Source: Flavobacterium agri
Lineage (GTDB): Bacteria > Bacteroidota > Bacteroidia > Flavobacteriales > Flavobacteriaceae
Direction of reading: 5' to 3'
Length of the DNA stretch: 64,000 nucleotides
Assembly (NCBI RefSeq): GCF_013401995.1
Contig: NZ_JACBJI010000002.1
Location: 686,196 to 750,195 of the forward strand
Below the pieces are notes generated by a model that had not been told where the DNA came from, ran no database searches, and saw only the letters and a list, made by a program, of their open reading frames with translations. Position numbers and translations under genes: made by a program. Positions 3,557 through 34,785 of the stretch are shown piece after piece. Position 1 is the stretch's first letter; the number at the start of each line of letters is the position of its first letter.

Positions 3557-6500
3557 TCATCGCTTTATCACGCGCAAGGTCTTCGAATGGATTCCTTGTA
3601 AAACTGAAACCGTGTAAACGCCCGACGGCAGGTTTTTACCCCATTCGAGGTTTTCGATTTCGTCGGCCGCTACGGTTTGGGCCGCGATCAATCGTCCCGT
3701 CGTGTCGTATATTTTGACTTCGACGGCTTTCGCTTCCGCGGATTCCAAATCCAAACGGAAGTCGTTGCTATACGGGTTCGGATACGCCAAAACAGAAAAT
3801 TCCGTTTCAAGCGCAATCGGTTTCTCGTCTGTCGCAATCTGTCGTGCCGCGCCAGGAGCGGTTATCGTGCAACTTTCCCCAAAAGGCGACCAACTTCCGG
3901 CAGTATTTACGGCAACTCTCACGGCATATTCGGCCGAAGGCGTAAAATTCGGCACCAAATGGAACGTAAACCAGTTTTGCGTGCGGTCGATCACCGTGGT
4001 TTCGAAATTGCCCGAACTCATGTTCGTAACCTCGAAACGATACGAACTTGCATGAGATACGCTCGAGGTCGCGATAAGCGTCCCGGCCGAATTGATCACG
4101 GCGTTGCAATCGATCAACATCGGTACGGTCGGGCTTGAGATAGTGCAGGCCGAACCGTAATTCGAGAACGAACCGTTGGTTTTTACCGCGACTTCCACCT
4201 GATACGTCGTGCCGTAATTGTATCGCGCGAGCATCGTGAGCGAAAACCAATGTTGGTTGCGATCGAGAACCTGGACGGCATTTGCGCCAACCGGATCGGT
4301 GAGATTCGTCACCCGGAAGCGATATTGGGTCACGCCCGCAAGACTCGTCGTCGCGATCAACGTGCTCAACGAAGCCAGGCTTGTGTTGCATTGAGACGGA
4401 TCGATTGCACCGGATCCGCCCGGATCCAAAATTGCCGGAGTCGAAATCTGGCAACTCGGTCCGTAATAATTAAGCCAGATACCGTTCCTTTTGAGCATGA
4501 CCGAAATCGTATACGTCGCCGCATAATCGTAATTAGGCAATTGGGTAAGCTGGAAATTCGGCACGTTGCGGTCGATGGTCTGTTCCGAAAGGTCGCTATT
4601 GTTTACGACTTTAAAGCGATAACCGTTCACGGGCGAACCATGACTCACCGCTCCTATAAGCGTTCCGATGGACGAAAGCGTCGTGCCGCATTGAGAAGGC
4701 AAAACCTGTGAAAAAACCTGGCTGCCGTCGTCTATCGTGCCGTTGCAGTCTTCGTCTATGCCGTTGTACGCGATTTCGGTTGAACCGGGATGAACGCTTG
4801 CCGAAGAATCGTCGCAATCGGTATTGTCCAAAACAAAATTTTCTGGCTGTATACACGAGGTGACAGACGAGGTCGCGTCCCCGAAACCGTCGGCATCCGT
4901 ATCGGCGTAATAAGTGTTTTCCTCGCAACCGACCGTATTGACCCAAAAACCGCCGAACCCCGTCGTTTCAAAAGACACTTCCCATCGGTTCTGTGACGCA
5001 TTCCATATAATATGGGAATCTTCGGGATTTATCGAGATTTCTGGCTCGACATACGAATTCGGTAGGCCTGTAGTATCAGAAGACTGGCCTTTCCTGTGGC
5101 CGATGCGCAGGTTCGAAATGCCTTGCGAATCTGAAGGGTTTTGTGGCAAAAGGCTTGACGGGGTTGGCATCTGTAAATTGAAACTGTCAAAATCGGCTTG
5201 AGAAAAATACAAGGTCACTTTACCCGTAGCCGTATCCGGATTCAGGCTTGGCTTGATTTCATGATGCCTTCGAGAAATACCAGCGGGCTCGTCGGATTCG
5301 ATCCATTGTTTGATCACCACCGTACCCGAAACAGGATTGGCGCCCGTGGCATCGAGGCTCGCCAGTAATTTGTTGAAAAGGTTGCAATGGCAACTTTCCG
5401 TACCAGCCTGCGTCTCCACGTTGAAGGTCTGGGAAGTATAAGCTTGTGTCTCGATCGCATTGGTTTTGGCACAATTGCCCAAAGCCCAAAGTTCGGCCGA
5501 ATAAAAAATGTAAGGCGATGTAGAGAAATAATCCCTTTGGAAAAAGATCTTGCTTCCGGTAGAAACGAAAGGACCTCCTTCGATGTTTTGATCGGAGAGC
5601 AGGACGGTGCCGGCTTCGGTTCCATCCGTTTTCCAAAGCGAGCGATTCGTCCCCGCCGGATTCAAAGCCGTAAAATGCAATTCGCCGTTGTGTACGAACA
5701 AAGCACCCGCGTTTGAACTACCGGGACCGACTACGATTTCTTTGACTATCGAAGTGATGGTGCCATCTGTTTTGTACAATTCCTGGCCGTTCGTTGGATT
5801 GGTTGCCGTAAAATACACATTGCCTCCAAATGTCATGAGACCGGTAGGAGAGCTGCTTCCCGAAGGATTGATGTCGGCGAAAAGGACAGTTCCTGCTGTA
5901 GTTCCGTCGGTGCGCCAAAGTTCCTGGTTGTTTGAAGAGGAAGTAGCGTTGAAGTACATGTAGTTGCCCAAAACGGCATACTCATAACCAATACCGCCTG
6001 TTGAGCCGGGCCAAATATCTTTCAGTAATATTGTACCTGATGCTGTCCCGTCGCTCTTCCAGAGTTCCATACCGTTGCCGGGATATGAATTCACGAAATA
6101 GAGTGCACCGTTGAAAGCCCTGAATTCGCTTGGTTCTGAATATTCGGTAGGCGAGACGAGTTTGATAAAAACCGTTCCGGCGGTCGTGCCGTCGCTTTTC
6201 CATAACTCGCTTCTGTAGCTATCGGTGTCCGAATAGACGCTGAAGTACAACGTGTTTCCCACCACCGTCAGGTTTTTTGGGGAAGAACCGGTCCAGCCGG
6301 CTTCTATGTCTTTTACAAGGGAAGTTCCGGCAGGAGTTCCGTCGCTTTTCCACAATTCTTCGCCATCGCCTGCAGTTGCCTGAAAATACATCAGGTTGTT
6401 GTAAATCGCAAATTCCTGAGGGTTTGAGCTGCCACCGCCGACAGAAATATCCACCGCCATCACGGTCCCAGCTTCGGTTCCGTCGGTTTTCCATAACTCG

Positions 6501-25213: not shown

Positions 25214-25250
25214 AGTTATGATCAAGACGTGCCAGATAGACGGGATTCGC

Positions 25251-25325
25251 GTTAGGGATGGAAGCGGCATCCTTTTGGCGGCGAGCGCAGTCGAGGCGCC
25301 AAAAGATACAGCAGACAGCCCGGCG
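25251..25325 (+). repeat. Dispersed repeat element, copy 1
   Basis: Core runs from GTTAGGGATGGAAGCGGC to GACAGCCCGGC. Inside it is a 9-bp stem CTTTTGGCG (25272-25280) / CGCCAAAAG (25297-25305), whose loop carries GAGCGCAGTCGAGG. Related ends occur at 35804-35950 and 55826-55967. It contains no open frame of interest. Confidence 0.7.
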
Positions 25326-25387
25326 GCGGCTTATCGGGACATGTTTACCACAGAATTTTCCAGCCGACGCAACGCCCTAAAAATTAA

Positions 25388-26990: not shown

Positions 26991-27072
26991 GCGGGTGTGG
27001 TGAAATTGGTAGACACGCCAGACTTAGGATCTGGTGCCTTACGGTGTGTAGGTTCGAGTCCTATCACCCGCA
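26991..27072 (+). tRNA. tRNA-Leu (anticodon UAG)
   Basis: 82-nt class II tRNA. Acceptor GCGGGTG/CACCCGC plus discriminator A, D-arm GTG...CAC, anticodon stem CCAGA/TCTGG with loop CTTAGGA (anticodon TAG at 27025-27027), a variable arm TGCCTTACGGTGT, and T-arm GTAGG-TTCGAGT-CCTAT. CCA is not encoded. It reads CUN leucine codons. The 3' part of the gene is repeated twice downstream. Confidence 0.95.
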
Positions 27073-27262
27073 CGAAAGCCTCTCTTTATGGGAGGCTTTT
27101 TCTATTTTGGGTGTGTAGGTTCTCCCGAAGCGTCGGGACTATCACCCGCACGAAAGCCTCTCTTTATGGGAGGCTTTTTCTATTTTGGGTGTGTGTGTAG
27201 GTTCTCCCGAAGCGTCGGGACTATCACCCGCACGAAAAGCCTCTCAAATCAAGAGGCTTTTT
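27043..27262 (+). repeat. Three tandem copies of the tRNA-Leu 3' end plus terminator
   Basis: Unit: GTGTGTAGGTTC, then a T-loop part, then CTATCACCCGCACGAAA and the hairpin GCCTCTC/GGGAGGC with a T run. Unit 1 (from 27043) is the genuine tRNA end with GAGTC. Units 2 (from 27109) and 3 (from 27187) have TCCCGAAGCGTCGGGA in place of GAGTC, at 27123-27138 and 27205-27220. Unit 3 has a different terminator hairpin (AGCCTCT/AGAGGCT). Units 2 and 3 lack the 5' half, so they cannot be tRNAs. The rest of the gap to 27561 is AT-rich, with a small palindrome at 27292-27306 and TAAATTTG at 27535-27542. Confidence 0.9.
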
Positions 27263-27561
27263 TCATTTATGGTCCATTCGCTTTTTGCGAATTCTCGATG
27301 AGAATCATAGTTTGCCGTTTTTGGCTAAATATATTTTCGTTTCGAAATGCTTTTTTCCAACAGGATCGGAAGCCCAGTATTCACTACTTTTTTCGACTTT
27401 TCTCTATTGTCGTTTTTTGGAATTTATCGATGAACGAAGCATTTTTTTCGAAGCTTTTCGCAGTCGAATTCTCATGCCGTTTATCGAATTCTAATTTTAA
27501 CAGGCTGACGGACAGCATGCTGGATATTTTTAAATAAATTTGAGAGTATTCCCCAAAATTT

Positions 27562-34410: not shown

Positions 34411-34713
34411 TTAGGCCGCGGTTGTTTCGGAATCAAGCCATAAAAGTTCGGAAAGGCATGGATTCGCGCGCATGATCAACCGCCATTTTTGGCTTTCCTT
34501 CCACTTTTTTATTTCCGCGACCCGTGATTCGGCAAGAGAAAGTTTACTGAACGTCTCGAAATAGATGAGATGTGTCGCATGGATTTCCTTCGAAAACGAA
34601 GAGCACGCGATTAATTTGTGTTCTTCAAGTTTTTGCGTCAAATCGTCGGTCGCACCGATATAGAGATAAGTGCGCGCGACATTGGTGAAGATGTACAGGT
34701 AACAAAATTGCAT
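34411..34713 (-). CDS. GIY-YIG domain protein with catalytic residues replaced
   Basis: 100 residues from the ATG at 34713. The GIY-YIG core is recognisable: YLYIFTN ... YLYIGATDDL ... EEHK, and the helix AESRVAEIKKWKESQKWRLI. In active URI-type nucleases an Arg lies in the LxRRLxEH segment and a Glu in RREKQIKKW. Here the corresponding positions read TQKLEEH and SRVAEIKKW, so Arg is Lys and Glu is Val. That suggests a nuclease-dead protein, unless other residues compensate. The N-terminal open frame upstream to 34779 is not needed. Confidence 0.75.
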   Translation of the reverse strand: MQFCYLYIFTNVARTYLYIGATDDLTQKLEEHKLIACSSFSKEIHATHLIYFETFSKLSLAESRVAEIKKWKESQKWRLIMRANPCLSELLWLDSETTAA

Positions 34714-34768
34714 GGCGTATAGATTAGACGATAAAAGTAGCGTGCAAGCTCGAAATCCGGTTACAGAT

Positions 34769-34785
34769 TTTCTGTACATTTTGTG
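34769..34785. repeat. TTTTCTGTACATTTTGT motif beside a palindrome
   Basis: The same 17-nt string follows the palindrome copy at 58333-58365 (from about 58363). Here it precedes the palindrome at 34803-34840, suggesting both belong to a larger element. Confidence 0.5.

Follow-up and report, generated by a model that had tools for sequence, protein, structure and literature searches.

A tRNA-Leu array with a recurring palindrome in Flavobacterium agri: probable remnant of an overlooked family of mobile elements at tRNA genes

Downstream of a tRNA-Leu(UAG) gene in Flavobacterium agri, the 3' end of the gene and its terminator are repeated twice, each time with a palindrome standing in the T-loop. 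What produces such an array, and what does the palindrome mark? We analyzed the locus within a stretch of 64,000 nucleotides (contig NZ_JACBJI010000002.1, positions 686,196 to 750,195), here called the window, and compared it with the rest of the genome and with related genomes. The array appears to be a remnant of mobile elements that target tRNA genes, a family that has attracted little notice, and this ties a trivial-looking repeat to a recurrent genetic element of many Bacteroidota.

The array behind tRNA-Leu and its counterparts in the same genome

The array occupies positions 26991–27263 of the window and begins with the intact tRNA-Leu(UAG) gene on the plus strand (26991–27073; ARAGORN; Rfam RF00005, 60.9 bits), whose T-loop reads GGTTC-GAGTC-C. 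The gene is followed by a terminator-like hairpin (AAAGCCTC...GAGGCTTTTT, 27075–27101) and by two tandem units of 78–82 bp. The first unit consists of a left tRNA piece, GGTGTGTAGGTTC (27110–27122), the palindrome TCCCGAAGCGTCGGGA (27123–27138), a right tRNA piece, CTATCACCCGCAC (27139–27151), and a second terminator-like hairpin (27153–27179). The other unit has the same order, with a left piece that is one letter off (TGTGTGTAGGTTC, 27192–27204), the same palindrome (27205–27220), the same right piece (27221–27233) and a third, diverged hairpin (AAAAGCCTCTCAAATCAAGAGGCTTTT, 27235–27263). All tRNA pieces and hairpins are on the plus strand, and the palindromes have no strand of their own. In both units the palindrome is located between GGTTC and CTATC, where the tRNA-Leu gene has GAGTC (tRNA-Leu index 66–70, in the T-loop); GAGTC is absent from both copies. 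With GGTTC on one side and the 3' strand of the T-stem on the other, 5 nt are exchanged for 16 nt; the GGTTC to the left of the palindrome derives from the tRNA.

A sequence-only reading of the window had described two tandem copies of the tRNA-Leu 3' end and terminator with TCCCGAAGCGTCGGGA in place of GAGTC. Re-reading the coordinates confirms this, and the palindrome occurs above chance: at up to 2 mismatches there are 6 matches in the window, which correspond to three sites read on both strands, compared with 0.04 expected from shuffles. The three successive terminators proposed behind one tRNA are found as terminator-like hairpins between 27075 and 27263, and a further palindrome noticed at positions 60–75 is real. 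Because the two units are near-identical (98% over 48 nt) and tandem, the last copying step was surely a duplication. Both units, which the sequence-only reading had suggested might be small RNAs, fold well as RNA (z -4.88 and -5.93), as expected of a palindrome combined with a terminator. The ORF list contains no gene within the array. At the gathering score, Rfam matched only the tRNA and Flavo-1 in the window, and no rtT. The Flavo-1 RNA (RF01705) is at 25246–25329 on the plus strand, about 1.7 kb before tRNA-Leu, with 44.3 bits against a gathering score of 42.

In the comparison with relatives that the same reading had proposed, the Leu array is absent from all 29 tRNA-Leu loci examined in other species (of 149 genomes with a match), three of which have only 82–199 nt downstream, but the same anatomy is present at other tRNA genes, as described below. 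The array is therefore found at one of 30 species loci examined, a count that concerns the ORF-less array and not the nuclease gene; occurrence in only some alleles of a locus is as expected of a homing endonuclease element. In a looser check of the 29 other loci, CCG..CGG was present within 400 nt in 4, and a copy of the tRNA tail in none.

The genome comprises 3,976,830 bases in 39 contigs, in which the palindrome type TCCCGAMGCKTCGGGA occurs at 4 sites, two behind tRNA-Leu and two behind tRNA-Asp. Allowing any four bases at the center increases the number to 22 sites, including two behind tRNA-Arg(CCT) and one in the tail of tRNA-Phe. Thus, 7 of the 22 sites are tied to tRNA sequences and the other 15 have no tRNA tie as far as seen. 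The palindrome at 60–75 belongs to the end of a related, less clear tRNA-Asp(GTC) array, which covers positions 1–118 of the window (plus strand) and also contains a partial copy, GGTTTGGTAGTTAG, at 44–57. The tRNA-Asp(GTC) gene itself is located approximately 345–271 nt before the window start. A further palindrome and two more partial copies, GGTTTAGTAGTTAG, are located between the gene and the window; the array is interrupted by an assembly gap, 33 N in length, that ends one base before window base 1. The tRNA-Asp array repeats the 5' part of the tRNA (GGTTTRGTAGTTAG; L005, about 5852–6270, just before window base 1) and matches no clean break-point class. Its first unit has no palindrome and folds as a mini acceptor-like hairpin.

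Behind tRNA-Arg(CCT) there are two ORF-less copies of the tRNA tail, broken by the palindrome after GTTC. The tRNA-Phe site is split between two contigs. Contig C39 starts with tRNA-Phe, and a GIY-YIG nuclease gene begins 55 nt further on; contig C12 ends with the rest of the GIY-YIG gene followed by GGTTC-TCCCGATGCTTCGGGA-CTGGAGGTACCA, a broken tRNA-Phe tail. The two contig ends have 76 identical bases in common. As the genome carries a nuclease gene of the T-loop class at tRNA-Phe, this class would be at work now, or have been in the past, at the Phe, Leu and Arg genes alike. Three other small GIY-YIG genes of the genome (L136, L140 and L141) have no tRNA within about 1.5 kb. The window also contains a small GIY-YIG ORF on the minus strand (34411–34779; 122 aa; PF01541, 30.5 bits), with no tRNA within approximately 1.5 kb and no such palindrome found near it.

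Nuclease genes between intact and broken tRNA copies in relatives

A palindrome pattern search was carried out in 150 genomes of the genus, and 30 loci were fetched. Here tRNA-Phe, tRNA-Val and tRNA-Asp genes have their own broken copies further on, with a small ORF between, and this ORF is a GIY-YIG nuclease gene, mostly of 80–100 codons. The usual order is intact tRNA, terminator, GIY-YIG ORF, palindrome-broken copy of that tRNA, and terminator again. The distance from tRNA to GIY-YIG ORF has a median of 52 nt (93 ORFs within 100 nt, not de-duplicated), and the units measure about 80–430 bp. In three full units examined, the GIY-YIG gene is the only ORF between the tRNA and its broken copy, and there is no integrase. 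The suggestion that the Leu array is the footprint of an element at tRNA 3' ends, as integrases would leave, is thus close: an element exists in relatives and in the same genome, but it carries a GIY-YIG nuclease rather than an integrase.

The break points are sharp. Given as the tRNA positions on either side of the palindrome, they are 56/62 in tRNA-Phe and mostly 45/51 in tRNA-Asn, where 53/57 or 58/64 also occur. In Val, Ala, Pro and Arg, the break is at 27–28/45–46, so that the palindrome takes the place of the anticodon arm. The palindrome replaces either 3–7 nt of a tRNA loop region or 10–17 nt of the anticodon arm. In the T-loop class (56/62), 5 nt are swapped for 16 in 7 of 7 distinct copies, the same exchange as in the window units, and in the variable-loop class 5 nt are swapped for 18 in 36 of 37. 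The class labeled 'late' (Leu-CAA) is, by tRNA numbering, a T-loop class too, and the label 'Dloop_up' is incorrect for L167, L223, the later units of L252 and the second unit of L259. There is also a mirror form, with the broken copy first, then the ORF, then the intact tRNA, in which the D-loop sequence AGCTCA-GTT-GGTTAG becomes AGCTCA-palindrome-GGTTAG; it is found at L232, L236, L241, L246 and L248 and, with greater distance or small differences, at L237, L243 and L250. The breaks are not limited to the tRNA 3' end: besides the T-loop, they are found in the D-loop, anticodon arm and variable loop. Two palindromes per unit are present in L186, L188, L195 and L196.

The palindrome arms read YCCCGA..TCGGGR in 72 of 93 distinct broken copies, and CCG..CGG occupies positions 3–5 in 90 of the 93. 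Since every inverted repeat whose arms were 5 or longer satisfied the break finder, palindromy is built into these counts, but the arm letters are not.

ORF-less units similar to those in the window occur in other genomes. One unit is present at tRNA-Arg(CCT) in G033, and such units also occur at tRNA-Cys in G007; in neither genome did the single-protein query identify a nuclease of the corresponding class. At a tRNA-Asn gene (L165, genome G159), ten ORF-less units of approximately 93 bp are arranged with a nuclease gene at the far end, and in G080 three arm-swapped ORF-less units of 85 bp precede tRNA-Ala. At a tRNA-Arg(TCT) gene (L252, G162 C1:1849500–1854500), seven tandem nuclease units (374 bp) are observed, the last arm-swapped copy of which is called tRNA-Ile(TAT) by ARAGORN and is likely a false tRNA. 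In one tRNA-Phe element (L099, G137 C1 about 467600), an XRE-like regulator ORF appears on reading to replace the nuclease gene; an apparent nuclease C-terminal end and the broken tail remain, and a second palindrome is located inside the terminator.

Using one nuclease protein as query, we obtained matches in 114 of the 150 genus genomes at E <=0.001, a number that includes weak matches and may include unrelated GIY-YIG genes. Several of the matches are tandem arrays with periods of 350–400 bp. Among 30 loci from this query, a tRNA gene is present in 26, and in 24 it lies at most 93 nt upstream of the nuclease match on the same strand. In L150 the tRNA is 333 nt from the match, and in L165 about 1.1 kb, beyond the ten ORF-less units. 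The alignment A3, compared with named genomes, gave 244 relatives, from which 80 loci were kept, in Bacteroidota taxa as far as recognized. Within the stretches examined, 63 of the 80 have a tRNA upstream on the same strand and 8 an intact tRNA downstream instead; no tRNA is present in the stretches of the other 9, of which 4 have less than 420 nt upstream.

Across 134 loci, an intact tRNA precedes the nuclease ORF by up to 100 nt or follows it by up to 30 nt in 98. A palindrome-broken cognate copy was found in 95 and none in 39, including some where the locus sequence ends. These 134 loci, with 196 ORFs, include some places twice; identical sequences are excluded from the tree, the arm count and the de-duplicated control. 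In this control, a broken copy was detected with the cognate tRNA at 94 of 134 distinct ORF ends, a different set from the 134 loci that has the same number by coincidence, compared with 0 of 134 for shuffled tRNA. The stretch upstream of the gene gave 1 of 129 with the cognate tRNA. With an earlier finder, at least one of up to eight non-cognate tRNAs equalled the cognate in 10 of 153 cases, partly via the shared T-arm; in several units at Val, Ala and Pro that finder mistook the T-arm for the palindrome, an error that the final finder excludes. Because the query proteins were tRNA neighbors, the fractions do not describe GIY-YIG genes in general.

Break point and nuclease lineage

Seven of seven proteins scanned match Pfam PF01541 over the cut-off, one of them being the window ORF that is not tRNA-linked. 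Residues Y6, Y17, G19, R27, H31 and E64, which we take to be catalytic, are invariant in 8 aligned proteins. The ORFs are short, and no domain beyond the catalytic one was found in them. Solved structures matched by the A3 profile at E <=0.01 are limited to two UPF0213 GIY-YIG proteins, 1zg2 (E 4.7e-07) and 1ywl (E 6.8e-04). The genes are under purifying selection, with median dN/dS of 0.18 for Phe, 0.08 for Asn, 0.11 for Val and 0.10 for Ala in hand-chosen groups of 4, 9, 4 and 4 loci (6, 14, 5 and 3 usable pairs, respectively).

The position of the palindrome in the tRNA follows the nuclease lineage. On a tree of 81 proteins, whose alignment has only 95 columns, which leaves many forks open and in which near-copies inflate clustering, the position class requires 13 changes compared with a shuffled mean of 41.3, and none of 200 shuffles was as low. 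For tRNA-Asn only (52 rows), 7 changes are required compared with 15.4 in shuffles, again with 0 of 200 as low. Six loci (L167, L223, L153, L175, L222 and L259) were left out of the tree, and all but L259 also out of the arm and swap counts. One clade, starred in the tree, contains 13 anticodon-arm elements at Val, Ala, Pro and Arg together with one Asp element broken nearby. The anticodon-arm class as a whole needs 5 changes, as three Pro and two Asn elements are outside the main clade. The T-loop class T58 (57–60) is hardly clustered, with 4 changes and 31 of 500 shuffles as low. Within one clade, different tRNAs are broken at the same position, and one tRNA is broken at different positions in different clades, which makes it hard to explain the pattern by shared location.

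While the extra tRNA copy is interrupted at a clade-related point, the target sequence is still present in the intact tRNA beside the element. In tRNA-Asn, for instance, the loop letters of the intact gene are identical in most position classes. Since the target is kept in the adjoining intact tRNA, the palindrome alone cannot protect the locus from self-cutting. Either self-cutting is tolerated or the nuclease recognizes more than the loop.

Origin of the array and competing explanations

Based on this anatomy, we suggest that the array in the window is probably an ORF-less tandem array, non-autonomous or decayed, of homing-type GIY-YIG elements that target tRNA genes; in the displaced copy, the palindrome would mark the point of attack, and the cutting and the mobility are what we infer. 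The family is placed with homing-type GIY-YIG elements by resemblance and anatomy, as a candidate rather than a proven member. The observation made in the sequence-only reading was right and its idea of an element close; its interpretation is partly supported.

In the mechanism that we envisage, the nuclease would cut the tRNA gene at the break point (T-loop GGTTC-GANTC in the Phe/Leu/Arg class), and repair from an element-bearing copy would insert the element, restoring one tRNA gene and leaving the second copy interrupted. After the cut, copying from the left end would begin in the intact tRNA of the element-bearing locus and run across the nuclease gene as far as the palindrome; the right end would pair with the part of the tRNA beyond the palindrome. 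The product of these two steps would have exactly the observed order, a rebuilt tRNA and a displaced broken copy. If the copied flank were the other side, the mirror form would arise. The palindrome would remove the target sequence from the broken copy, and unequal recombination between units could generate the tandem arrays. Gene-less units may simply persist, or, as a guess, the T-loop-class nuclease at tRNA-Phe may act on them in trans. The conserved arms may take part in binding, in resolution or in the element's mobility.

The closest case among the literature matches listed is a phage enzyme. SegB of phage T6 is a free-standing GIY-YIG homing endonuclease (PMC13096335). According to that study, the motif RAWTSGAAC is common to 23 of 83 reproducible cleavage sites, cleavage peaks are located within tRNA genes, SegB activity together with homologous recombination leads to tandem copies of tRNA-Tyr and segB, and the authors argue that self-cutting is tolerated in their phage (PMC13096335). 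In our own comparison, the reverse complement of the motif, GTTCSAWTY, corresponds to the T-loop; tRNA-Phe and tRNA-Arg of this genome fit it, and tRNA-Leu fits in 8 of 9 letters. The elements resemble SegB and the free-standing GIY-YIG homing endonucleases of T-even phages in having a small nuclease gene adjoining tRNA genes, a T-loop motif and a link to tandem amplification (PMC13096335). Unlike SegB, they are chromosomal in Bacteroidota, and their protein is mostly 80–100 aa long. Their units end in a palindrome-swapped tRNA copy, a feature absent from the description of SegB used here (PMC13096335). A viral origin was considered and rejected, as a scan of IMG/VR with A3, one query type, found no relative.

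Integrative elements use tRNA genes as attachment sites. Such elements also leave an intact tRNA and a displaced fragment at the other end, with breaks in the anticodon arm or T-loop. The present elements differ from them in that the units examined contain no integrase, the displaced fragment contains a palindrome, and the units are only about 80–430 bp long. A tRNA-integrating genomic island was rejected for the window itself, where units of 78–82 bp have no room for an integrase.

A broader proposal is plausible, though short of probable: that these are minimal mobile elements of Bacteroidota, widespread and undescribed, consisting of a GIY-YIG protein of 80–100 residues and a palindrome, which attack lineage-specific tRNA arms, rebuild the tRNA, mark the displaced copy and multiply as arrays with gene-less units in trans, the palindrome being a working part of mobility. 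Because of this last point, they would differ both from known kinds of homing endonuclease and from REP/RAYT systems. Among the matches listed from the open-licence PMC literature, no title or abstract describes such arrays and only the phage study (PMC13096335) is close; none of four palindrome 14–16-mers was found in open-licence PMC papers. If the homing-type reading is right, the element attacks very conserved genes without putting them out of action, and the palindrome is its record of where the attack took place. The presumed target would stand beside each nuclease lineage, allowing a direct and cheap test of how small GIY-YIG proteins find their sites. In bacteria, the elements would parallel the tandem amplification of tRNA genes that SegB drives in phage. 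At tRNA loci, they account for some of the contig breaks and dubious tRNA calls. The function of the conserved TCCCGA..TCGGGA hairpin is a further question that they raise.

The palindrome is also found independently of the nuclease elements. Dispersed palindromes of one type are present in 60 of 150 Flavobacterium genomes, and similar palindromes are scattered at places without a tRNA gene, apparently also inside genes. In the F. agri genome, a scan for palindromes with a loose center found 84 sites compared with 3 in the control; among the sites listed, most had no tRNA link seen. Genome G006 has 42 palindromes of a related type and no GIY-YIG match with the query used. Given these scattered palindromes and G006, the spread of the palindrome is not one-to-one with that of the nucleases. 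A repeat that is mere noise unlinked to tRNA ends, the outcome that would have spoken against the original reading, is not what the relatives show, yet palindromes do occur away from tRNAs too. At L062 and L065, TCCCGACGCTTCGGGA is found in apparent coding sequence, in frame as PDASG (by eye), and resembles intragenic palindromic elements. The F. agri genome also has, at C1:15302–16525, six imperfect palindromes CCCGA...TTCGGG spaced by multiples of 201 bp, perhaps within a repeat protein gene.

These scattered palindromes raise the possibility that the palindrome itself is the mobile unit, REP-like and moved by the GIY-YIG protein in the role of a RAYT, hitting many places and surviving in tRNA genes only in spare copies. 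Such a unit would explain why the arms are conserved across tRNA types and positions, and why palindromes are scattered in the genus, some apparently within reading frames. In addition, the genome has no Y1/RAYT transposase to move palindromes: PF01797 has 0 matches, compared with matches in 5 of 14 control genomes, and a RAYT as mover was therefore rejected. As in REP/RAYT systems (PMC3733652), the palindrome is short and also scattered; here it is tied to a nuclease gene. It differs from those systems in the GIY-YIG protein and in its fixed points within tRNA copies (PMC3733652). No GTAG or CGTC tag was seen at the palindrome end, and reading the sequences gave no constant tag outside the arms. 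We consider this explanation unlikely, because palindrome counts do not track GIY-YIG matches one-to-one (G006), the position within tRNAs goes with the nuclease clade, and the palindrome comes at the cost of 3–7 nt of target or of an arm, unlike the REP insertions known to us. An element built around the nuclease remains our preferred reading.

Could the array be a passive product of slippage or unequal recombination? Tandem repeats containing the tRNA-Tyr 3' end (rtT RNA) occur downstream of E. coli tyrT, and the Leu array is similar in repeating the 3' end of a tRNA gene in tandem behind it. We know of no palindrome swap or nuclease gene in the tyrT repeats, and an rtT/tyrT-type repeat was rejected for the window, where Rfam gives no rtT match. 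A duplicated tail in which a palindrome landed by chance in one copy and was then copied would fit the near-identical (98% over 48 nt), tandem units and the lack of a gene in the array, and the tandem step of this scenario, already part of the sequence-only reading, stands. What it misses is the recurrent swap at the same tRNA position, at other tRNAs beside a nuclease gene. Six other species have Phe elements with the 5-for-16 exchange at the same position, as does the tRNA-Phe tail in the F. agri genome, and broken cognate copies accompany the nuclease genes at 94 of 134 ORF ends. Passive duplication as the whole explanation is thus highly improbable.

We regard it as equally improbable that the broken copies, some of them tRNA-like with a new anticodon arm, serve the host as decoy or regulatory RNAs, with the nuclease as a domesticated partner acting, for example, against phages or tRNA-cutting toxins. 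The purifying selection on the ORF and the calling of some arm-swapped copies as tRNAs by ARAGORN are consistent with a function. In phage, SegB-driven tRNA amplification is reported to counter a tRNA-cutting defence (PMC13096335). Weak PADLOC matches were obtained for 3 of 4 proteins, but these (best E 2e-06) extend over no more than parts of the catalytic fold. Moreover, a large part of the tRNA is missing from most copies, and the patchy presence and varying tandem copy number would be more in keeping with a selfish element. An assembly artefact is hardly credible: the assembly is a draft of 39 contigs with an N gap in the tRNA-Asp array and contig ends in the tRNA-Phe array, but the Leu array is internal to its contig and the same anatomy is present in single-contig genomes and a chromosome record (e.g. 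G022, G159, and L188 on NZ_CP058246.1).

Two loci have unusual palindromes. At L089 (G114), the palindrome has other letters, TCTCGT..ACGAGA, and two are present in one tRNA copy. At L153 (G119), several copies contain a double palindrome, as if two target points had been marked.
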